Shown: one piece after another, positions 546-49,300 of the stretch
Layout: each line of letters opens with the position of its first letter
How positions within the stretch are numbered: position 1 is the stretch's first letter
Assembly: GCA_018524725.1 (NCBI GenBank)
Contig: JAEUWP010000097.1
Location: forward strand, 62,001-126,000
Direction of reading: 5' to 3'
DNA from: Podaxis mareebaensis
Lineage: Eukaryota; Basidiomycota; Agaricomycetes; Agaricales; Agaricaceae
Length of the DNA stretch: 64,000 nt
The notes under the pieces: generated by a model
What the model was told of the DNA's origin: nothing
The model's database searches: none
Seen by the model: only the letters and a program-made list of their open reading frames with translations
Position numbers and translations under genes: made by a program

Positions 546-1060
546 CTAGTTTTCGGGTGCAAAATCGCGCTTCCAGCCAGGAGGGGGGCCCCGTTGAGCC
601 TCAGCTTCACGTTTCCAACTAGGTGTTCGTTGAGCCTCGGCTTCACGCTTCCAGCTAGGCGTTCGTTGAGGTTCGGCCTCACGTCTCCAACCAGGTGGAG
701 GTGGGACGGGTGCAGCCTCGGCCGCGGCTTCTCTTCGCCAGCCGGGTGGCGTTCCTCCGGGCTCAGCAGTCCGCTTCCAGCCAGGAGAAGGAGGTCCCCT
801 CTGAAAAGGCACCGAGATAAGTTTAAGATGTAAATTAGATTCATCCGATAAACTTACAGCAACAGCTGCCGCTCCACCGTCAACCTAAATAGCGCAAGTA
901 GAAAAGGTGCATTGATCAGCCAAAGTGCTTTTTTCGATATAAAGAAGGAATAGAAGGGAAAAAAAAAAGGGGGGGGCAGTGTCGGGGAGAGACTTACAGG
1001 GACGGGAGCAGCTAGAGCAGCACCAATAACAGATACGAAGAAAAGGAGTTGGATTCGCAT
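546..1060 (-). CDS. secreted Kex2-processed repeat peptide precursor (alpha-factor-like layout)
   Basis: Three exons are read on the minus strand: 1060-998, 884-858 and 800-546, all in phase 0, with GTAAGT donors and introns of 113 and 57 nt. They give a 114-residue protein. Residues 1-18 (MRIQLLFFVSVIGAALAA) form a clear signal peptide. The rest is six short cores that each end in Trp followed by a dibasic KR or RR. The cores are GPPSPGW, GGTPPGW, VPPPPGW, RTPSW twice and RGPPPGW. Most dibasic sites are followed by X-Ala or X-Pro dipeptides (TAEP, EAAAEAAP, EAEP, EAEA, EAEA), the kind trimmed by Ste13-type dipeptidyl aminopeptidase. This is the layout of ascomycete alpha-factor precursors and of KEP proteins (Kex2-processed repeat proteins). 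No membrane segment follows the signal peptide and the C-terminus (DFAPEN) has no CaaX box. Inference: it releases about six small Trp-ended peptides to the cell exterior. Their role (signal, defence or precursor of a cyclic peptide) cannot be read from the sequence. Confidence 0.85.
601..672 (-). repeat. 36-bp tandem repeat coding for peptide units
   Basis: Two adjacent 36-bp units, 601-636 and 637-672, differ at only a few bases. Each codes on the minus strand for one QRTPSW core plus its KR and EAEA spacer. Neighbouring units upstream and downstream are diverged copies of the same design. Repeats of this kind change copy number by slippage or unequal exchange. Confidence 0.8.
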
Positions 1061-1183
1061 TGCCAATCAGATTTACAAGTGGGACAGAATGGCACAAGGG
1101 CGGGGTGGGAGAGGGGACTGCAGGGGATGGAAAGAGAAGCGGGGGCTTTTTGTATGAAGTTCCAAGACAAATGGCCGTAAGCC

Positions 1184-1191
1184 CTTTTATA
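1184..1191 (-). promoter_or_regulatory. TATA box of the peptide precursor gene
   Basis: The minus strand reads TATAAAAG about 125 nt upstream of the ATG at 1060, a normal place for a fungal TATA element of a strongly regulated gene. Confidence 0.5.
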
Positions 1192-3208
1192 TGGGTGCCC
1201 CAGGACTACCGAGGCATGCCTACCTTCCATTCGCGGAATAGGCCCTGTCTAATTTCCTCACTGAAAGGTAGGTGCCTTGCCGGTGCCTGGCGTTACACAC
1301 GCCCTGTTACGCACCTCACAAGGTACAGCCTTTCACATTTTGGGGTCTTCATTCAGCCCCTACCTTCTTAGTATCGTGACATAAGATACTTCTCGCAGTC
1401 AGAGACCTATCCTCTGGATGGCACAAGAGACGGGATGAAGCCTGGCCGTTGCCTTTCGGATAGGGACGAACCTTCTCGTGATGACAAGCAAATCATAAGT
1501 GGTTCATTAACAAATGGGCGATGCCCCTGTAGGACAAATTGTCAGGACCAGTAAATGACCCTGCCAAGGGGTCACCATCTTCTCCCAAATCAACAGAACA
1601 AGTCCTTGGTTGCCTTGGTCAGAGGCCACCGTCGATAGCCACGAAAAGAAGCCCCCGGATTCCTGGTCTTGGTTCTGAACAAAGTATTGGGTCGCGCGAT
1701 CTCCATAGAAATCCAGAAATGCACCAAGAAGCGTCCATTCAATCGTTGGACGGAATAATGCCTTGCGGCCTGGTGGGAGGTGTTTCTGGTATGCAGGTTT
1801 GTTTCAAGATGCGAGAGTCGGACCGCTTACGTGACATAAATATTCTCACCGCCGAGCTCATGCACCGTCCACGGGTTACGGATAAGTCAGGCAACGCACT
1901 GGAAACACACTGTCAATTGCTCGCTACATTCCATATGCGATTGTGGCCTACTTCATTCATGCATCGGAAATGTACATCGAAAAGTCCTGGGCTCTTACTA
2001 ACTATTCCCAGCAGCTGTATGACCTGATTAATGTCTTAGGGCATGACTACATAGAGCCCTCACAAAATATTTATGCACGGTGCTCATATAGCAGGAGACC
2101 AGGTGAGGGGCTAACAAGATGTTGCTATGTCAACTTACTTCTTCCGACAGCTCGATCCGCAAAACACTTGGAAACGATTGATCACAACCCAGAGAACTGG
2201 GTAAGAAGGCTGATGAAATTGCGTGGAAAGCTTTCAGGGGGACTGGATGACCTCATTGACTGGATCTTAACATAGGTCCGGTGACGGATTGGTAGTTGTA
2301 TCACCACCACAAGGCCACGATAACCAAAGTCACCAGTTCAGGCCACATGATGACCCACCGCTTCCATGTACAACGGATAGCCAGCTCTGGGGTAATGGTT
2401 CCGACATCTGAAGATACTATTCAGTCAGCCAGGCACCTGCCTATAACCTGTCTGACCATCGACAGCGGCAGCCGTCCAGCCGAGCAATAGTGAGCAAACC
2501 CAGAGCACGAGTAAGACGCCGCACAAGACTATGAATTAAATGCTTACCGTTCTGTCAAACTATATTTCTCCATTTCCAAAACTTGATGCTTGAAACTATC
2601 CAATCGCGTTGGGCCTCGGTCAAGTAGGCTTCCAAAAAGAAGGAAACGAGGGTAGGGGCGTTGATGCTCAGTTTCTAAACCTCAGTCTGATGCATATAAA
2701 GATAACTCTCAGGTACGGACATTTTCAGTCCAAGACGGTTGTACTCCTTCGGGGCTTCAAGGCTTCGTGAGTATGGCTTGTAGGTCATGCATGGTCCCGG
2801 TTCAAGACTAGTCCCACTCAACAACACTTAGAGCTACTAAATGCTAGGCCTAACGGCTGAGCGGGGTATTCATGCTGCATAACACAACGGCGAGCGAATA
2901 GCACGATAGCCCATTCCTGTGTGTGCGTGTGGCCAATATGCGGCCGATCTATACACTGGGACCTCTGGTGGGCGCCAAGATATCTTTTGACGCCCAATTT
3001 AATACTAAGCGCCGGTAGCGCCTATGAAACCTTCCTATCACGTGTTGGAACTAACCCACCAACGCCACCAGAAATACGACGTGGGACCAGAACGGAATTC
3101 ATCATTCTAATACCCACGAGCAGACTCATATCCCTGTTGCTACTAACCCTCATTAGCACCCCACTTTCTTCCACATTTTACTCATCGCGCGACATCTCTC
3201 AATCCAAC
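1192..3208. other. 2 kb without a recognised gene
   Basis: Open frames occur at 1539-2027 and 1943-2275 on the plus strand, but neither shows a known domain and they overlap in different frames. The stretch 1943-2275 (with YIEKSWALTNYSQQLYDL) looks protein-like in composition and could be a decayed exon. I cannot assign it. Confidence 0.3.
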
Positions 3209-4393: not shown

Positions 4394-6869
4394 TCAAAAC
4401 ATTCGGACGTAATCCCTACACCTTTTACTCCCACAAAAACATTTCTTCATTCCTTCCGCGTCCTCAGCCATTAGGTGGTCCGTGCTCCGCGCAGAGGCGG
4501 GGTCGTAATCTACTGTGAGCTCTGTCCCTGCTCCAATGAATTCACGCGCAACGAAAATGATGTATGGTCGGTTTGTCTGATGGCATTCCCATGAGTCAAG
4601 ATGTTGGGTTCCAGGGTATGCACAGAAACGCACGGCGGGTATAGTGTCATATACCGCTAGGTATATAGTCATATTCGGGCTACAAGAATGACTATAGCAC
4701 ATATCAGCTCCCGTTGCAACGCGAGAAAAGCGAGGAAAAGGCGTACTTGACAAAATGTGTCCAATTTCCTGATTAAACCATCTAGGATAAGCGATATTCC
4801 GGGAGATCAATAGGAAACAACACACCGCAAGTCCTCGAGTCGACGCTAAACTTTCCCTCAATTCCATCTCCGCCCTCCTCATTCTCGTCTAGATCTTCCT
4901 GCCCATCCAGGTCGAAACAGTACCCTCCCAAGGTGTCGCCCATGTTCAGAGCTTCTTCACGCGTGCTACGACTTCACGTCAACATCCGGTTATTCTTCAA
5001 CACGGTCAAACATATGCGCACATTAACCGCCTGTTGAGGGATTCGTGTGAGGTTCATCTGAATTGGAGCGTAGAGTGAGAGATACGAACCCAGAATACAT
5101 CCCCAGCACCTTTCCACGCACAACGTCAACCGACGCACGGACGCCCCAGCCTTTACCTTCAGTCTTGAATATTTCAAGCGGGACGTCCCTTGGTCGCTGA
5201 GCGATACGGTTGTTGCAGTTCGGACCACAGCGGCAGACCTGATTATCACTGTGGATGAGGACTATAGTAAGAGGAATGCGGATAGGTTGGACCTCACTTC
5301 GTTGCATTCTATCACTTCAACGCCGGATGGAACATTGAACGAGAATAGGCCCTGGCAAGTGCAAGTGTTAGCCGTTGTAAAAGTAAGGATGATGGGTGCC
5401 AACGTACGGTTTTAGTATATGCGAACGCCTTGTGTCCTTTCTTGTTTACCACCTCGGAGACACTTTGACAATCACACGCGGAGGGAGAATCACATCGTGT
5501 GCAGTCGCAACCAATCTGGAATTCTGCGTTCGGTTTCTCGATACCATCCGAACTACATCCCAGTTAGCTAAGTAACAACAGATAGGACGAGAGAGAGGAC
5601 TTACTAGATGTATCCTTTCTCGAGGTACTGGAAATCAGATATCAGTGGGGGTATCTCTTCGTTGTCCACGTCGTTTACGAAGGAGATTGGTGCGGCACCA
5701 ACTTCGTTAGCGATCTTTGTCCATTGCATAGACAACTGCAACCGCTGTCGCAGGCTGTTATCTGTGTCAGCATGCGATGATGCACAGCCAGAGAAGTAAA
5801 ATTCACCTGTGCATCGGAGTCTTACCCTTTACAACTCCTATTACATCCTCAGCATCTTCCCTGTATCGAACAACATGACTGGGAAGAAGCTCAGGAATGT
5901 TCAGTCATGGATACCTCGATAGCCCCGGTTCGCCCCCAACCTCAGATAACTTGCGCTTGCGCACACGTTCACTGTCGCCTGGAGACGGGGAATGTCCGAA
6001 AGACAGTGATCGTTCCGGTTGGCGAGTTGGCAGCGAAGGTTGTGGCTTTGAGCCCGAAGTTGATGTTGAAGGGACTGGTCCGGAAACAGATGGAGGCTTA
6101 GGTGTATCCTTGCGACTCGATCCTGAACGTTGTTGGGGTTGTGTTAGTGTATGTTGCTGCTGCCGTCGTACAGTCGAAAGCCGCAGCCCCCGTCCCGCAT
6201 GTGCAGGGGTCAATGGCGTAGCAGACCCAGACAGAAATTGAGCTTCCTCTTCCCTCCATCCTGAGCCCAGTTTCTGCGCTAAGAGTTTTTCCATCTGTTC
6301 TTCGAGCTCCGGACTGAATTTGCGTCGTGCTGCCAGTTTTTCTCCGTAAGCCTGGGCGCGGAGGCGTGTCTCATGGTTGTGTATGTCGGTGCGAGCGAGC
6401 GGCTCAAGTTCGACATCGAGCGATTCTTTAGCAATTTTCGCTCTTTCACGTCTTTGTGCCTTGCACCAGTCGCGTAAGTGGGCGGGTGGCATTCGATGCC
6501 AGGTCTGAGAGGTTCCATCGGCGCGTTGCCAGTTGTCCCATTCGATCTTAAGAGACCACGTCAGCGTGCGTTGATATCCGAAATCGACTGAGGGGTACCT
6601 CATATCTGCGAGTACGCATATGGATGAGCGGCTGCGATAGCTAGGGTTAACTCAGATTTAATCAGGACGTACCGAACTTCTCCTTTACCATCGACTTCCT
6701 CTCCTACTACTTCGAAGCCCCATTCTTCACCTTCTTCGCCATCCTCAGGTTCTGGTGATGGTGAGTTCTTCCAGAAACTCTCGTCAACGGTTATGACTTC
6801 TTTTGGCCTACAAATAGGTGCATTCACGACGCAGATAGAATGCAAAGTGATGGATACTCACATTGACAT
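4394..6869 (-). CDS. chromodomain SET histone H3K9 methyltransferase (Clr4/SUV39 type)
   Basis: Thirteen exons summing to exactly 1812 nt (603 residues) can be chained on the minus strand. The order is: a short N-terminus; a chromodomain (WGFEVVGEEVDGKGEVRYE joined to IEWDNWQRADGTSQTW); a long polar linker rich in Gln, Ser and Arg; the pre-SET region (PISFVNDVDNEEIPP, then GCDCTRCDSPSACDC and VCRCGPNCNNRI); the SET domain (GWGVRASVDVVRGKVLGMYSG, FSVDSRTCGNWTHFVNHSCSPN, ELTVDYD); and a post-SET CFCGSKRC zinc site. All catalytic landmarks are present: NHSCSPN, the ELTVDY tyrosine and the clustered cysteines. Such enzymes methylate lysine 9 of histone H3 and bind the mark with the chromodomain to form heterochromatin. 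Several exons are tiny: 8 nt (start), 7 nt (6605-6599), 9 nt and 22 nt. The start codon is the least certain part because exon 1 is only 8 nt and the upstream frame stays open for some codons. Confidence 0.9.
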
Positions 6870-13721: not shown

Positions 13722-16051
13722 ATGTGGTTGTTGGTTTTGACCGCCCTTGCCGTTGTCTTTGCGCTCAAGAGGGCGGTAGCCTTTTGGCAGGCTGCTAGAA
13801 GGCTTGGGTGCGTAACGGTTCCTACTCCTGGACTAGGTGCTCACGGAAGAATGGGGAACACAGCAACTTGCCGGGTTACCGAACGCTCTTGAATGCACAA
13901 ACTGCGCTTGGCTTCTTCATTCCTAGGCCTTGGTTTCCTGGCTTGACCCAGGGTAAAAATTATGCTTTCAACGACAAACACACTGGTAAGTTTAAGCCGT
14001 TCTTCACACGCCCATGAAGCTCGAACATCCCCTTCTCAGTGTATGCTTGGGCTGGTTGTGACATCGTCGTCAATGTCTCCGCATTTCCGTGTAGGGCGAC
14101 TATCGTGATGGCGGATGCTGCTGCGATCAAGGTGTGTTTCATCTACAGCCTAGGCTCTGCCTTACTGAGAGTTTGTCTCCAGGAAGTCACGTCCTCCCGT
14201 GCGAGGTTCCCCAAGCCCGTTGATGCCTATAGATCTTTGTCGTTCTTTGGATATAATGTTGTTGCCTCTGAGGGCGAGGATTGGAAGAAGTACCGCAAGA
14301 TTTCCGCGCCTGCCTTCTCCGACGTATGTGATCCTTACCAATGCAACTCCCTTCAGCATCGAGTTGATGGTTCTCGCAGAAGAACAACAGGCTCGTCTGG
14401 AATGAAACAGCGGCTATCATGAATGACCTATTCGACAATGTTTGGGGCGACAAAGAGGTTGTCACGGTGGATCATTGTCTGGATCTTACACTTTCCGTAC
14501 GTCCGCCTTCCCGTCCCTTGCTGTGCAACGCAGAGATTCATTCTTTTTCTACAGATCGCGTTCTTCGTCATTGGCGTAGCTGGCTTTGGTCGCAGGATGA
14601 CCTGGAAAGAAGATTTGATTGTCCCCAAGGGGCACAAGATGACATTCAAGCAATCGTTATACATCGTTGCGACGTATATGATCCCTAAGCTTCTGCTTCC
14701 AGACTGGGTCATGCCGCTTACTAAGAAAACGAGGGAAATTGCCGCAGGTTTTGAAGAGTTCAAGGTGAGCTCTTGTCCAGTCTTTGGAAGAAGTGCTGCT
14801 GAGGATGAAGTTAACAGTCTTATATGGTCGAAATGGTCGAAAACAGAATAAAATCGGAGAAAGTGGAAAGAGATGATTTGTTTAATAACCTTTTGAACGC
14901 CAACGACGATGAAACTGGGGGGTTGACTACAGATGAGTTGATTGGTACGCTCCTTATGCTCGAAGTTTTGCATTAGAGAAGCCAATACCCCATCTAGGCA
15001 ATATCTTCATCTTCTTCCTTGCTGGCCACGAGGTATGTTCTACCTCACACTTTCTCGCTCCTACCCTGACTTTTCCTTGCACACAGACAACAGCACACAC
15101 GCTCTGCTTCACGCTGGCCCTCTTGGCCCTTTACTCGGACGAACAGGAGAAATTGTATCAACACACCAAATCCGTTCTTTCCAACCCCCTTGCACCGGTT
15201 CGTCTTATTCACGCAACTAGCATTGCTACGTTCACTTCACGCCTATCTCACAGACATATGAAGAGATGCCGCTGTTGACCAGGACCATGGCGTACGTTTT
15301 CTCTTCCCGAACGAGTAAATAAATGCTGACTTCTTTTACATAGTGTATTCTATGAAACTTTGCGGATGTTCCCATCTGTACGTATAGCCATTTCTGCTTG
15401 GGAAAGATTAGACAAACGTAATCCCGATCTAGGTCACTATAATCCCCAAGCGGAGCGCCGAGGATACAACGCTTAGCACCACAAACGCCCAAAACGAAAC
15501 CGTCGTCGTGCCAGTACCGAAAGGCACTGGCATCGCCATCAATGTTCCTGGCCTGCACTACAATCGTACGTCGTCATTGTGTATCTTGTGGCTTGCTGCA
15601 GAAACCTCACTATAACGGTCTTATAGCAAAATATTGGGAGGACCCGGAGACCTTCAACCCGGATAGGTTCTTGAAACCAGACTGGAACAAGGACGCCTTC
15701 GTACCTTTCAGCGTTGGTGCTAGAGCCTGTCTGGGACGGAGGTACGTGCCTCAACGCCTTTCTTCAATTCATCCTTTTCCTCTGACAATCTTGTCCGCCT
15801 GATTAGGTTTTCTGAGATGGAAGCTGTGGCGGCCCTTACGATGCTCATATCCCGGTACAAGATCACTGTGAAGGAGGAGCCACAGTTTGCACATGAGACA
15901 TTTGAACAAAAGAAAGAAAGAATATTGAGGACGATCCCCTTGTTAACCTTGACGTACGTCGAGATTTCACACTGTTCCCATTCCTTTCTCGTGTTGATTG
16001 GCTTTCCCAAGGCCTGTAAGGGTTCCGTTGGTGTTTACTCGCAGGCGATGA
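13722..16051 (+). CDS. cytochrome P450 monooxygenase, copy 2
   Basis: Paralogue of the gene at 10424-12758 with the same exon structure. It starts [21 protein letters not shown]. It carries [53 protein letters not shown] and [17 protein letters not shown], so every catalytic motif is intact. The protein ends [13 protein letters not shown]. Long blocks are identical to copy 1 (for example [13 protein letters not shown] and KVERDDLF). Differences are concentrated early in the protein ([15 protein letters not shown] against KIGIPGFIQGRNYAF), a region that in P450s helps form the substrate channel. Inference: a tandem duplicate that is retained and may be shifting substrate range. Confidence 0.92.
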
Positions 16052-20373: not shown

Positions 20374-20582
20374 GGGTATGTTGAGGAGGAAACAGAGTTC
20401 ATGGTGGAAAGAATTATTCTATTTATTATTATTTCCTTATATGGCATCCTCACTATCGTGGCTTGACTAAACTCTGTCTCACCAACTTGCCATCTCTTGT
20501 CTGTACGTACACCCCCATTTTTAATTCAAACAAATGATTTCTCAAACAGCGCCCCCTCCCCTTCTCTCCTCCTGACCGGTCC

Positions 20583-22610
20583 ATGCTCTCTCTATTCCCC
20601 CGCAGGACCGCCCGCCGCCCGGTCCTCCTCGTCTTTGCCCTCTCCTCCATCGCCTTCATCGCCGGCGTCCTCCGTGACGCTTCCTCCGACGGCGGCCCTC
20701 CTCGCACCCGAGTTAGAACCGCCTTGAACGCGACCACAACCGTCACACTCACTCACACCGTCTATGCAGAGACAACACACACAGTCACGGTTGCCACACA
20801 GCCCCCGTCCACCAGTGCCACCGTCCCCAAAGTGCCTGTGTCAAACGAAAACCACCTCTTCCGCCCTGATGGCCTGCTCGAAGTAAACCCAAACGCGCCA
20901 CACCCCATCTATCGCCTCATCGCAAATGCCGAACAGCAATGGACACGCAAACTCCAAAAGGCGAGCAAGACCCTCAAGGAGGCCGTAGCCGAGTACGAGC
21001 GGCGGTATCACCGGAAACCCCCAATAGGGTTTGACGCGTGGTGGACGTATGTCAAACAGCACGACGTCCAACTCCCAGACGAGTACGACCAGATTCACCA
21101 TGACCTCGAGCCCTTCTGGGGTATGGATCCTCGAGACCTGCAGGCTATTCAGGCCGAATGGGAGTCCCATGAAGACTCATATACCATTGGCAAGGACACT
21201 CCAAACGCACCAATTGACGTGCTCAATTTCGCCCTTGGAAGCGACAGGCCAGACGAAAGGATCCATTTGATAAATCCTGCATTCGAGATTATCGAACTGC
21301 TGGAAGACGTGCAGGATCACATTCCGCCGTTTAGAGCTGTATTCTCACCACACGATAACCCGAATTTATTCACCGATTGGGAATTGAGAGAGATGGCAGT
21401 CAAAGCCGCCGCCGAAGGCAAATGTACGTCCATCCCTCCTGCTTTACAAGCCCACCTCATTAACGATACACCAGTCATCGACATCAACAACCCACCAGAA
21501 GTAAAACTACACGGCTGGCCCTCTGCCTGTCCACCCACTTCCAAAGCCTGGACCGACCCTCCCCCTTCTCCCTTCTCACCCGACACGGCCTCCTCACCTC
21601 CACCGAAGAAACCCCCCAAAACCTTCATTCATGACCACAAACTCGCCATGAACCCCTGCCTCCATCCACACCTCCTAACCTCGCACGGTCAATTCCTTTC
21701 ACACAAAAAAGGCCCCATCCCACATCGCAAACTCATACCCCAATTCTCCTACAGCCCAACAATGCTCCATCATGACATCACACCCGCCATGCCTATCAAC
21801 TGGGTCTCTGAAACCCCACGCAAATTCGACCCCGAATGGAAAGACAAAGTCGATGAACGACTTTTATGGAGAGGGCGGAATACCGGGATATGGCACGATG
21901 GAAAGGGAACTGGAAAAGAAGGTGATGGGAATGGTGTTCCCTGGCCCCTTGCACAACGAGACCGACTAGTCACTTTTGCCAATACCGACTTTCACGAATT
22001 CATAGACGTACTAAGTCCTACATCCCCACACGAATCAGAACCACCACAACTGAAAACCTACAAAAAATCCCACCTGTTCCCTTCCCTCTTCGACATCGCA
22101 TTCACAGACAAATCCATCAACTGTCCACCACCCACCTGCGACTTCCTCAGCGCAAAATACGAATTCAGACCTCTACAAGACTTCCAATCCGCCGGGAAAT
22201 ATAAATACGTTATGGATGTAGACGGGAATGGTTGGTCTTCGAGGTTCAAAAGGCTCATAACGAGCAACTCGTTGGTGTTCAAGGCTACGGTGTATCCGGA
22301 ATGGTGGTTGGATCGTATACAGCCATGGGTGCATTACGTGCCTGTGCAGAATGATTATTCGGATTTGGTGGATGCTGTTGTGTTTTTTACTGGTGAGCCT
22401 GGGAGGCCGGCGAGTGAGCCTGGACTTGGTACGGAGAGTGAAAATGAAGAGTTGGCGAGGAAGATTGCGCAGGCGGGGAGGGAATGGAGTTTGAGGTATT
22501 GGAGGAAGGAGGATTTGACTGCTTATTTTTTTAGGTTGTTTTTGGAGTATGCGAGGGTTATGAGTTTGGAGAGGGATGAGATGGGGTTTGTGTATAGTGG
22601 GGAGGTGTGA
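20583..22610 (+). CDS. CAP10/GT90 glycosyltransferase, copy 1
   Basis: Reads as one open frame of 675 codons. A hydrophobic segment near residues 10-30 (RPVLLVFALSSIAFIAGVL) marks a type II Golgi membrane protein, followed by a Thr-rich stem. The catalytic part has the CAP10 (GT90) landmarks: FIHDHKLAMNPCLHPHL, DERLLWRGRNTGIWH, YKYVMDVDGNGWSSRFKRL, SLVFKATVYPEWW, and WVHYVPVQNDYSDL, ending with EWSLRYWRKEDLTAYFFRL. Characterised relatives include the Cryptococcus xylosyltransferases acting on capsule and glycolipids. The acceptor here is unknown. Within the frame, 21425-21475 has the form of a 51-nt intron (GTACGT donor, TTAAC branch-like site, CAG acceptor) and matches the position of an intron in copy 2. 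If removed, the protein has 658 residues. Confidence 0.88.
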   Translation: MLSLFPRRTARRPVLLVFALSSIAFIAGVLRDASSDGGPPRTRVRTALNATTTVTLTHTVYAETTHTVTVATQPPSTSATVPKVPVSNENHLFRPDGLLEVNPNAPHPIYRLIANAEQQWTRKLQKASKTLKEAVAEYERRYHRKPPIGFDAWWTYVKQHDVQLPDEYDQIHHDLEPFWGMDPRDLQAIQAEWESHEDSYTIGKDTPNAPIDVLNFALGSDRPDERIHLINPAFEIIELLEDVQDHIPPFRAVFSPHDNPNLFTDWELREMAVKAAAEGKCTSIPPALQAHLINDTPVIDINNPPEVKLHGWPSACPPTSKAWTDPPPSPFSPDTASSPPPKKPPKTFIHDHKLAMNPCLHPHLLTSHGQFLSHKKGPIPHRKLIPQFSYSPTMLHHDITPAMPINWVSETPRKFDPEWKDKVDERLLWRGRNTGIWHDGKGTGKEGDGNGVPWPLAQRDRLVTFANTDFHEFIDVLSPTSPHESEPPQLKTYKKSHLFPSLFDIAFTDKSINCPPPTCDFLSAKYEFRPLQDFQSAGKYKYVMDVDGNGWSSRFKRLITSNSLVFKATVYPEWWLDRIQPWVHYVPVQNDYSDLVDAVVFFTGEPGRPASEPGLGTESENEELARKIAQAGREWSLRYWRKEDLTAYFFRLFLEYARVMSLERDEMGFVYSGEV

Positions 22611-24341: not shown

Positions 24342-26417
<2,076 letters not shown>

Positions 26418-27293: not shown

Positions 27294-28746
27294 TCAGTCT
27301 GATTTTGCGGGTATAGGAACCTCGGCCTGGGGTGTGAGGCGCACAGCGTGGCGGCGGAAATTGGGATCGAAATCGCGAGTCGCAGAGTGGCAAGTAACTC
27401 GGTTATCCTAGAAATGGCAAACCAACGATCAACACCGCAGGACTGGAGGCTATCAACAAACGAGAGAACGTACCCAGATGACGACAGTTCCTGGCTCATA
27501 ACTCGCACGAATTTGGATATCAGCGCTCTTGGAGAGATGGTCAAAGAGGAAGTTGAGGAGGTAATCGGATTCCTCTTTCTTGAAACCGACAATACGGCGC
27601 GTAAAGCCTTCGTTCACGTAAAGAGCCTTCTCGCCTGTGACTGGATGCACGCGAACCAGAGGATGCTACAACACATATTTACATCAGCTCGTGTTTCCTG
27701 CAGTGGATCGAAAGAACCAACCTCAGACTCAACGGGTTCCCTCCTAACGGGTCCCCCAATCTTTCTCGAATATTCTGCCTGATCAACAGCAGAATGCACT
27801 GCTGTCAGCCCCTCCAACCTCTTACGGAACTCGGGTGAGAGCCTGTTATAAGCCTCGACTTGCGACAAGAACAACGTGTCGCCACCAACTTGGGGTTGGT
27901 CGAGAATCCAGAACCAGGTAGTGCCAGGGGGCTGCTTCTCATACGAAACGTCGGAGTGCCAGGAAACGAGATTATTCTTCAGGTCGATCTCGCGATATCC
28001 TTTGTTACGATCCTCGGCATTGTCGCGGTAGACTATTGAGATCATAGACATAAACTGGAGAACTTGGGTAATGAAGGGATGAAGCACGTACCGACGTGGT
28101 ATTCAGGATAGTCCTTCACGTTACCTGACGTAGGGTGCCTGTGGATGGGACCAAAGTGTCTAACAATCCGCAGTCACGAATCAACAATCCGCTCTTCCAA
28201 CTTGAAATTGAGAGCAACACGTCATGCTAAACTCACCGAGCAATCTGAAGTTGCCTATCTGGATCCAAGTCCTTGAAATCCTGGTTACGGAAGATCAACA
28301 CCTTGCGCTCAGCAGTAAGCAGCGCAAGCTCGTCCAGTCCCTCTTTAGAGAGCTGAGAAAGCTGGACGCCGTGAATCTCAGTGCCAAGGTAAGGGCTGAG
28401 GTCGCGCGTCTGCACGTTGGGTGTAAGGAGGTTGGGCTTGGTTGGGTTTGCGCGGAGGCCAGGATCGTTATGCTCTAAAGGGTTGTATGATGGGTTGGTG
28501 TGTGAGAACAGGGTGATGGGCGGACGTACCGAAGATTTCGAGCGCGGGCCATTTTTCTGTTAGGTCATAGTAAGGGTAGTAGAATGGGTACGATAGGCCC
28601 TGTAGATTGGTTCGTCTACTCAACGTGAGACAGTCAATTGGAAAGGCGAGACTTACCTCAGGAACGACATTCCTCTTCAGCTCGGCGACCTTATCAACAG
28701 GTGCCTGGGTAGGAGTGGCTTCGAGTTGAGCAACAGAGGGAGCCAT
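27294..28746 (-). CDS. TauD/TfdA-like Fe(II)/2-oxoglutarate dioxygenase
   Basis: About six exons on the minus strand, from MAPSVAQLEATPTQAPVDKV to the terminal IPAKSD. Key parts: GLSYPFYYPYYDLTEKW; LSPYLGTEIHGVQLSQLS; LALLTAERKVLIFRNQDF; HFGPIHRHP; NNLVSWHSDVSYEKQPPG with the metal-binding HxD; GGDTLFLSQVEAYNRLS; the second metal His in WDNRVTCHSATRDF; and the 2-oxoglutarate-binding Arg in RRHAVRLT. The facial triad and cosubstrate site are therefore complete. Fungal members of this family cleave sulfonates, such as taurine, or other small acids. The exact substrate cannot be told. No organelle signal is evident, so it is probably cytosolic. A TATA box sits just upstream. Confidence 0.88.
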
Positions 28747-46377: not shown

Positions 46378-49300
46378 ATGCACCCGGCCCTGCCAACTTC
46401 AGAACGAGTTGTAAAAAAGGTTTCTCGAGGTCAGTCCGCTGGTCATGATCGTCGCTGATGGCGTCTAACTGGTGATCATCTTAGCATGCAACACATGTCG
46501 TCTCAAGAGAAAAAAGGTGCTTTCTGCCCTGTAATACTTCTGACGCCGCTTATTTATCTTTGATCCAGTGCGACGGTCTCGACCCATGCGCGTTCTGCGT
46601 CGATAACAAACTCGAGTGCCTTTACTCCAAGGAGCCACGACGACGCGGGCCTCCCTCTGGCTATCTACGCTACACCGAAACACGCGTTGCAATTCTAGAG
46701 ATTCTCCTCGGTTTATATCTATCGAAACTGCCAAAGAAGGAGGAAGAGGACGGGGAGCCATTCGACCCTTTTCTTGACATTGCCACAACTCTGCAAGCGG
46801 AGGCCAAGACGTGCACACAGGATGTATGGGACGCACATAAGGCGGTCTGGACGAGGTGTCCGTCCGCGAAAGTCGTGGAAGAGCTCGTGGTTTCGTTTGC
46901 TCCCTTTACACCTCGGTCCGCACAGGAGGCTCATGTGAAAACCCTCCTGCCCCCACCTGCCGCATCGGCCACAACCTCGTCGACCCATGATCGACATTCT
47001 ACGTCCACGTCGGTTTCTACGTCGGGCAAGGATGGGGCAAGGAAATCGGACGAAAGGCTGCGGAATCCGGCAAATCAAATCCCTTTCACTCAGACCCTCA
47101 GACCGGAGTCGTTTGAGCGGACAGGGAGTCATGATCGACTTACGGATACCGCATCACCGGTATCAGTGCGCACGCTGGGAGAGGCAGGGCCAGTCTCTGG
47201 GATTGAGGAGCAGCAGGACGAATGGCATGATGCCAGGGCCGCGGGGGAACATCAGGCGAGGTCCTATATGAGCATTCCGGAGCCAGCATCGGATTCCGTG
47301 CAACTGGCGTATCCTTCGCACCGATCGCAGCCTTTCGAGCAAGATATCGTGTCGTTGGACAACTCGAGTTCAGTCAAGTTGAGGGATACGCCAGACATTG
47401 AGATGGCGCTTGGATTGGGTGGTTCACAGGAGTATACAGGGAGCTATTGGTGAGTATAAGGTCCTCATCAAATGTCACATACATTCAACTCGATTCTTCC
47501 TGTCCAGGCGCACTGTTGACCTTTCCGCGCCAGAACCCGAGACATACGCATCGATACCCATAACGCAATCCAACTTCGTTCCACCACCGACAAACCAAAT
47601 CGACCTCCCACCATCCCACATTCTCTCCCGACTCCTGGATGTCTATTATCAGCACTCACATCCATCATACCCACTACTACCCAGCCGGAGCACTCTTGAT
47701 ACGATTCTCCTATCGCCATCCAGCAAATCCGAGTTACTGTCCACCCTCGTACTGTCGATATGTGCATACAGTGGCCGACTGTCTCCTTCAACACACCCCG
47801 CGTCAAATTCAATAGCCGGAACTGGGGGCCTCGCGGGAAAAATCGCTGCGGATCTTTGGTACGAACAGGCAAGGACGGCGTTGAGCGCGTTACTGAAGAA
47901 AGGAAGTTCGTTGGAGTTGGTCCAGGCTTCCTTGCTACTGGCTCTGAGAGATTATGGAAAGGGCAATGAGAACCAAGCCTGGGTTCTAGTTGGTATGTAC
48001 GATCTTTCGCCTTTTCTATTAGCGAAGCTGACTATGATCTCAGGTCTGGCCGTACGAATGGCCCAGGACTTACAGCTGCACGAGTATCCTTCAAGCAATG
48101 AAGCCTTACAAACCCCACCGGAAGAAGCTCAACTGCGTCGAAATGTTTGGGGTGTTTGCGTTATCCTCGACCTTCTGCTCTCCTTGCAAATGGGTCGGCC
48201 ACCTGCCAACTCCGACGCCCTTAAAGGTTCGCTCGCTGTTGCATCGCGCACACGCCCTCCAGATGTCGACGTGAACCCTTCACCTCCCTTTACCTATGCC
48301 GTTTCCCTATGTCGCGTCATCGCAATGATTAACTTCCACCTCTATCTTGGTTACCCATCACCGGCAGCCCAAACACCACCTGATAAAGTCTCACACCTAA
48401 GAACAGAACTGGACATGTGGCATCACTCCCTTCCCATGCAATACCGTATATCGATTGGACACCAACCACGACGCGATGTTTTGGAGATCAACATGCTCTA
48501 CCATGTGGCCATCATCCTTCTTTATCGACCTATGTAGGTTCCAATTCTCCCGCGTACTTTCCTATCCGTTATATTGGCCGACCTGACCTTGTGTGTGTTC
48601 TCCAAATAGATCCCGAGAGCAGCTGAACCAACAGACAACCGATATATTCCTGGAAGCTGCCTCTACATTTAACGTCCTCCTGGAGAAATATCGGCAATCG
48701 CAGGCGATGTCGTTATCGAACCCGGCGAGCAATGCTCCTGCACTCTCCCATACGAACCCCAACATGATCTATCTCATCTACACTGTCGCAATTGCCCATC
48801 TCTCCGGGTACAAGCTACGCCAGGTACAACAAGGGAACGGAAATGCTTCTACAACGGTATCCCCCACATCGGCATTGCAGACGCAGTTACACTTGCTCAA
48901 ATGCCTGGAAGCCCTGGCGTCAATAGGATATACTTGGGAACTGGCGCGGCGGTGTTGGAAAGCACTCGATACGTTTATGGAGATGGAGAGCCTGAAGCCG
49001 CGGGCCGGGGAAATAACCGATGAAAATAGTTCACTAACCCTGGGTAAACGGAAGAGGGAGATGGAGGAGAATCAGAACAGGTCGTGGCCTTTGACGAGTA
49101 GAATGGATACCCCTATTGTTGGATCTGGTACCCGTGGATCCCCTGCGAAACAGCAACATCAGCAGCGCGCTTCACACCCCTTCCCTGTTACTTTGTCCTC
49201 TCCCATCCCTGATCTTGGGACAATGATGACTTCGTCTCCGAATATCCCCAACCGATTTACTTCTGGTTATCAACAGACGCCACAGCATAATCCAGCTGCA

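Follow-up and report, generated by a model that had tools for sequence, protein, structure and literature searches.

A basidiomycete precursor of the alpha-factor type, very probably processed to short Trp-ended peptides, with a likely role outside mating

What does a precursor built like that of an alpha-factor do in a mushroom? Basidiomycete mating pheromones are lipidated a-type peptides (PMC9769878; PMC6339444), and the question is what purpose alpha-factor-like precursors serve in species that mate in this way. A gene of Podaxis mareebaensis bears on it. The gene lies in a stretch of 64,000 nucleotides (the window, on the contig labelled C190). It makes a clean case: the masses of its products can be predicted exactly, the genome carries two paralogues, and in a relative the N-terminal part has been conserved better than the cores. 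We regard it as highly likely that this gene encodes an alpha-factor-type Kex2-processed repeat protein (KEP) whose processing would deliver short, secreted, Trp-ended linear peptides that do not serve mating.

The gene runs on the minus strand from an ATG at 1060 to a TAG that ends at 546. Its three exons, whose splice sites were picked by eye, encode 114 residues, and all exon junctions are in phase 0. Both GT-AG introns open with GTAAGT; intron 1 (885..997, 113 nt) closes with TAG and intron 2 (801..857, 57 nt) with CAG. Exon 1 (998..1060) carries a hydrophobic N-terminus, MRIQLLFFVSVIGAALAAPVP, where the nine-residue mean hydropathy reaches 2.77. This is probably a signal peptide, to judge from hydropathy and from relatives, among them the Macrolepiota protein P0014 discussed below, whose N-terminus is similar. 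Exon 2 (858..884) delivers a short pro-region, VDGGAAAVA, and exon 2 of a paralogue on contig C59 is likewise short. Exon 3 (546..800) holds six Trp-ended repeat units, the tail DFAPEN and the stop codon, and includes, at 592-697, a tandem repeat with period 36. Upstream, a TATA-like ATATAAAAGGG at 1182..1192 (minus strand) starts 132 nt before the ATG, as a sequence match only. The bounds of the gene agree to the nucleotide with the 546..1060 that a preliminary description of the locus had given.

Family databases add little here. The window protein matches no Pfam family at E<=0.1, MF_alpha included, and Pfam together with NCBIfam gave nothing useful for it or for proteins P0014, P0001 and P0006; a single DUF6344 match in P0001 (E 0.063) falls below the family cut-off. 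Rfam, applied to the whole window at the gathering threshold, gave zero matches. A scan for sigma-70 promoters and intrinsic terminators gave 0 and 0, this being a bacterial scan that is inapplicable to a fungus.

The argument for what the protein does starts with its layout, where a hydrophobic N-terminus and a short pro-region lead into six cores. Counted from the gene model on the minus strand, core 1 is GPPSPGW (777..797), preceded by a single Arg (AVAR) and followed by KR. Core 2, GGTPPGW (738..758), follows TAEP and core 3, VPPPPGW (687..707), follows EAAAEAAP; both are followed by RR. The last three cores, each followed by KR, are QRTPSW (651..668, after EAEP), QRTPSW again (615..632, after EAEA) and QRGPPPGW (573..596, after EAEA). 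Every Trp of the precursor (6/6) stands directly before KR or RR, and every KR or RR site (6/6) stands directly after a Trp. Five of these six sites are followed by an XA dipeptide (TA, EA, EA, EA, EA), in keeping with the EA/AP-type dipeptides that had been claimed after most sites; the sixth is followed by DF, which opens the tail after the last core.

Could such a pattern be an accident of an open frame, or the remains of a dead gene? We give this almost no credence. When the 84-residue repeat part was shuffled 200,000 times, the largest number of W-K/R-R motifs was four, reached in one shuffle. Elsewhere in the 64 kb window, read in all six frames, every stop-to-stop stretch holds fewer than two. 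The introns are in phase and have consensus ends, and relatives exist in several genera. Further, units 4 to 6 are near-identical, and they differ in an informative way. Units 4 and 5 show six nucleotide differences, of which five are synonymous, against the 22% expected if single changes were random (binomial p ~0.003). Units 5 and 6 show four differences over nine pairable codons, all four synonymous. The C59 paralogue behaves similarly: across the G/S-APGW-K/R-R part of 14 units (11 GAPGW, 3 SAPGW), 249 of 285 single-change codon comparisons are synonymous, these being pairs that are not independent. Substitutions between near-identical units are nearly all synonymous, which means that the repeats function as coding sequence and have been kept. 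The chance frame was rejected on the shuffle counts and on this synonymous excess.

Processing would then follow the logic of alpha-factor. If expressed, the precursor would enter the secretory pathway, where kexin would cleave after each KR or RR, a Kex1-type carboxypeptidase would expose the C-terminal Trp by trimming off the basic residues, and the EA, EP, TA and AP dipeptides would be stripped by a Ste13-type dipeptidyl peptidase. Given the specificity of such enzymes, dipeptidyl trimming would be expected to halt before the VPP of core 3. The cut that frees core 1, after a single Arg, is inferred by analogy with processing described in PMC9769878. The predicted outcome is the release of six short, Pro-rich, linear peptides having five sequences (GPPSPGW, GGTPPGW, VPPPPGW, QRTPSW twice, and QRGPPPGW), with the Gln-led peptides probably in pyroglutamate form. 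Their predicted [M+H]+ values are 697.330 (GPPSPGW), 671.315 (GGTPPGW), 749.398 (VPPPPGW), 774.389 or, as pyroglutamate, 757.363 (QRTPSW), and 894.458 or, as pyroglutamate, 877.4315 (QRGPPPGW).

The genome has candidates for this machinery. A six-frame search, whose counts for machinery genes are lower bounds, found a kexin P-domain (PF01483) as a single match on C109 (E 3.5e-15), and a dipeptidyl peptidase IV domain (PF00930) as three exon matches at one locus on C120 (E 1.6e-55), a match that does not distinguish Ste13 from its vacuolar relatives. The processing model is, by its analogy with characterized systems, well supported, and very probably the precursor yields a number of short, Trp-ended, secreted peptides. 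The proposal of an alpha-factor-like KEP in a basidiomycete stands, the layout suiting Kex2 and Ste13-type trimming in an Agaricales genome.

Is this a new kind of gene? Here, the literature is decisive. KEPs that combine Ste13 dipeptides with a C-terminal Trp are many in basidiomycetes (Vogt, 2022; PMC9769878). Le Marquer had reported KEPs from basidiomycetes in which the Ste13 signature is clear, and suggested that they serve as non-sexual signals (Le Marquer, 2019; PMC6339444), and Umemura counted about 5.3 KEPs per Basidiomycota strain (Umemura, 2020; PMC7329392). Trp-ended products have been found by mass spectrometry (PMC9769878). The gene is a clean yet unexceptional representative of a KEP class already described. 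Of the preliminary interpretation as a whole, the KEP design, the basidiomycete host and the relatives survive; the suggestions that the type may be undescribed and that its peptides may be cyclised find no support.

The closest published comparison is with KEP 490115 of Coprinopsis cinerea, which shares RR sites, XA or XP dipeptides, and Trp-ended cores led by Gln (seven residues long in 490115). Expressed in Pichia, it delivers QMRPPSW together with QYKAPSW, of which a pyroglutamate form was found too (PMC9769878). The window's core sequences differ from these, a comparison made with the published peptides and not with the precursor sequence of 490115. In the portions of that report considered, no 490115 peptide is reported from C. 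cinerea tissue, while another peptide, GPPAPSW, is present in C. cinerea culture fluid. Trp-ended peptides have also come from fruiting bodies, where they belong to Pleurotus KEPs 1091723 and 1439342 and Lentinula KEP 2599, and the two Pleurotus proteins share Ste13 dipeptides with the window precursor (PMC9769878). However, the peptides detected in shiitake and oyster mushrooms end in AADW, whereas the window cores end in PGW or PSW. Ascomycete alpha-factor precursors share the repeats and the KR-EA processing logic, and they have a signal peptide as the window protein probably does, but the window protein has neither an MF_alpha match nor any sign of a mating role.

Two protein searches delivered 18 distinct relatives. 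The first gave six at E<=1, two of them at only E 0.4 and 0.9; the second gave 15 at E<=0.01, with scoring confined to the 7,995 candidates with the most words in common. Genera represented include Termitomyces, Hebeloma, Lyophyllum, Pleurotus, Leucocoprinus, Mycena, Macrolepiota, Paxillus, Pholiota and Pluteus, which are all Agaricomycetes. In the 18 relatives and the three precursors of the Podaxis genome together, Trp precedes 134 of 146 KR/RR sites, and KR, RR or KK follows 135 of 158 Trp residues, counts that are partly circular because the queries were themselves rich in Trp. The Ste13 signature is another matter. XA or XP follows 55 of the 146 sites, with 0/17 in the C59 paralogue and 1/10 in a second paralogue on C150; thus, Ste13 trimming is not general in this set.

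One relative stands closer than a family resemblance. P691DRAFT_788375 of Macrolepiota fuliginosa (P0014) resembles the window protein in its N-terminus, in its pro-region, and in five W-K/R-R sites, each followed (5/5) by XA or XP. In one gapped pairwise alignment, which is no measure of positive selection, the N-terminal parts are identical at 21 of 31 positions and the W-K/R-R residues at 11 of 15, compared with 22 of 55 for cores and spacers. Unlike the window cores, four of the five in P0014 end in DW (SDW or ADW), and one in PPW. When P0014 was searched back against the Podaxis genome, only weak matches appeared; the C150 paralogue was best (E 0.09), followed by two exons of the window gene, exon 1 (E 0.12, 65% over 23 residues) and then exon 3 (E 0.25).

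Gene neighbourhood gives a hint here. The window contains a GT90 family gene (PF05686) at 20538-22607, and among the best 120 of its 310 relatives the most identical (69%) is P0021, again from M. fuliginosa, a result that sets the fungus close to Macrolepiota in the Agaricaceae. P0014 and P0021 lie on contigs of the same size, 137,133, and in Lyophyllum shimeji the KEP relative and the GT90 relative are likewise on contigs of equal size, 1,566,531. These equal sizes suggest that a neighbourhood of KEP and GT90 is common to the window and Macrolepiota. P0014 is probably the orthologue of the window precursor, an assignment that rests on the N-terminal part and the equal contig size, because the reverse search is weak.

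Within its own genome, the gene has company. A search with the repeat part found, beyond the gene itself, one locus, on C59 (E 0.2). This second Trp-core KEP (about 27659-28476, minus strand, a three-exon model drawn by eye) has 17 W-K/R-R motifs, which close 14 GAPGW or SAPGW units, one GPAPGW, one TPTW and one APPW; one PPPW has no dibasic pair after it. A third, on C150 (about 122254-122807, minus strand, a two-exon model by eye), was picked up by two DNA patterns and has ten GNSDW units. In all three models, drawn as they are by eye, intron 1 is in phase 0 and lies just past the hydrophobic N-terminus.

How many more might there be? Genome DNA matches W-K-R-E-A at nine places (a reversed-pattern control, at three), two of them within the window gene; eight of the nine were scanned (the ninth is on C365), and the six of these eight outside C190 have no frame with two W-K/R-R. 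A second pattern, requiring three W-K/R-R in which the first codon after TGG starts with A, matched 39 places (control 12): 13 on C59, three on C150, three on C190, ten in a group with a 39-nt period, and ten on other contigs. Among the latter, translation of C51, C78, C107, C143 and C200 gave no frame with three W-K/R-R, while C236, C248, C311 and C377 were assessed on the printed match only. A third pattern, with CGN as that first codon, matched 17 places (control 10), two on C150 and one on C190; the remaining 14 were assessed on the printed match only. Because the reversed controls themselves gave 12 and 10 places, most of the remaining matches are no more than chance or a repeated element would give. 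Other KEPs may, of course, escape, since these patterns demand at least three closely spaced W-K/R-R.

The ten places with 39-nt repeats are spread over C53, C178, C220, C364, C403 and C415. The three that were translated (C53, C178 and C220) contain frames of a WRRHF or WRRYF type, and the group is probably a repeated element rather than a set of KEPs.

What, then, might the peptides do? Their layout recalls alpha-factor, and a mating pheromone would be the obvious guess. We consider it highly improbable, given that the pheromones of basidiomycetes are of the lipidated type cited above, and that the genome fits this: STE3 receptors give at least 23 exon matches, with zero on C190, and STE2 gives none, although control genomes are equally silent. 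The guess was rejected on these grounds, together with the absence of MF_alpha. Eighteen of the STE3 exon matches, from several genes, lie on C188 at about 69.6-120.6 kb, a cluster that is perhaps the mating-type B locus.

A second guess makes the protein a RiPP precursor, with cores cyclised as in dikaritins or otherwise tailored. The KEP layout is compatible with this, and UstYa (DUF3328) genes lie within 15 genes of 6.1% of Basidiomycota KEPs, and beside 17 (22%) of the 76 KEPs that are kin to six putative alpha-type precursors of basidiomycetes (PMC7329392). Because of those 17, modification is not dismissible on class grounds alone. UstYa gives at least eight exon matches genome-wide, on C61, C58, C291 and C325 only. 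C190, where a look past the left edge had been proposed, has no UstYa match, and the precursor has no Tyr among its 114 residues; cyclisation was rejected on these two grounds. Moreover, the mushroom KEP peptides that Vogt detected are linear or minimally modified, in the portions of that report considered (PMC9769878). Surroundings were surveyed as the 57 longest non-overlapping frames of at least 130 residues in the window and in the 10 kb to its left, and 20 of the 57 were scanned with Pfam. In those 20, and for UstYa genome-wide, no recognised modifying gene adjoins the precursor. A P450 match at 14018-14419 and a tryptophan (flavin) halogenase match (PF04820, E 0.00076) at 25259-25993 are possible hints of tailoring, 13 and 24 kb from the gene, with both below cut-off. 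All told, a tailored product seems very unlikely.

There remain linear peptides that most likely act outside the cell and outside mating, where they would either carry a signal or affect other organisms. It is quite possible, if short of probable, that their targets are bacteria, other fungi or animals, and not the producer. None of six C. cinerea kep knockouts, which include that of the Trp-core KEP 490115, showed a phenotype in pure culture, and a biotic interaction is what the authors of that study prefer (PMC9769878). When P0014 is compared with the window protein, the cores are also seen to have diverged further than the N-terminal part, a contrast to be read with the caution already attached to that alignment. 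However, the synthetic KEP peptides tested in that study had no antibacterial activity against five bacterial strains (PMC9769878).

Alternatively, the producer itself may be listening. We hold it as a tentative possibility that the peptides are a hormone or a density signal, perceived through a GPCR or an oligopeptide transporter. A precedent is Qsp1, another short secreted basidiomycete peptide, which has a C-terminal Trp. In Cryptococcus neoformans it is imported via Opt1 (PMC7537855). The alpha-factor-like design is in keeping with a signal, and Le Marquer speculated about hormones that GPCRs would read (PMC6339444). The Podaxis genome has at least 33 OPT exon matches. Against a self signal stand the same silent knockouts, the absence of a STE2 match (in a test where the control is also silent), and the fact that Qsp1, unlike a KEP, is matured from its pro-peptide outside the cell by a different protease, Pqp1 (PMC7537855). 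The two kinds of target divide only the role of the peptides; therefore, neither is a rival to the processing model, which is the same for both. A search of the literature by title, with most subscription journals outside its scope, turned up no more recent work on what basidiomycete KEPs do.

The best OPT match in the genome (C150:134284-136263) lies about 11.5 kb from the GNSDW precursor. This may be chance, and it is not on the window's contig.

A bolder reading can be imagined, although we think it unlikely. Here, the Trp-ended KEPs of Agaricales would be a small multigene family with a stable secretion scaffold and stable W-K/R-R sites, and the turnover of cores from genus to genus would be that expected of a code for self-recognition. 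The Pro-rich or Trp-ended words would differ from species to species and be recognised by an OPT-type importer or another receptor, in a mushroom peptide language unrelated to mating.

Elsewhere in the neighbourhood, about 5 kb past the left edge is a class II tRNA synthetase frame (PF00587), which to us reads like a glycyl-tRNA synthetase, and a SET-domain frame lies at 4397-4888. Far to the right, a fungal-specific transcription factor domain (PF04082) lies at 46485-48534, and the preceding frame has a Zn2Cys6 match below cut-off.
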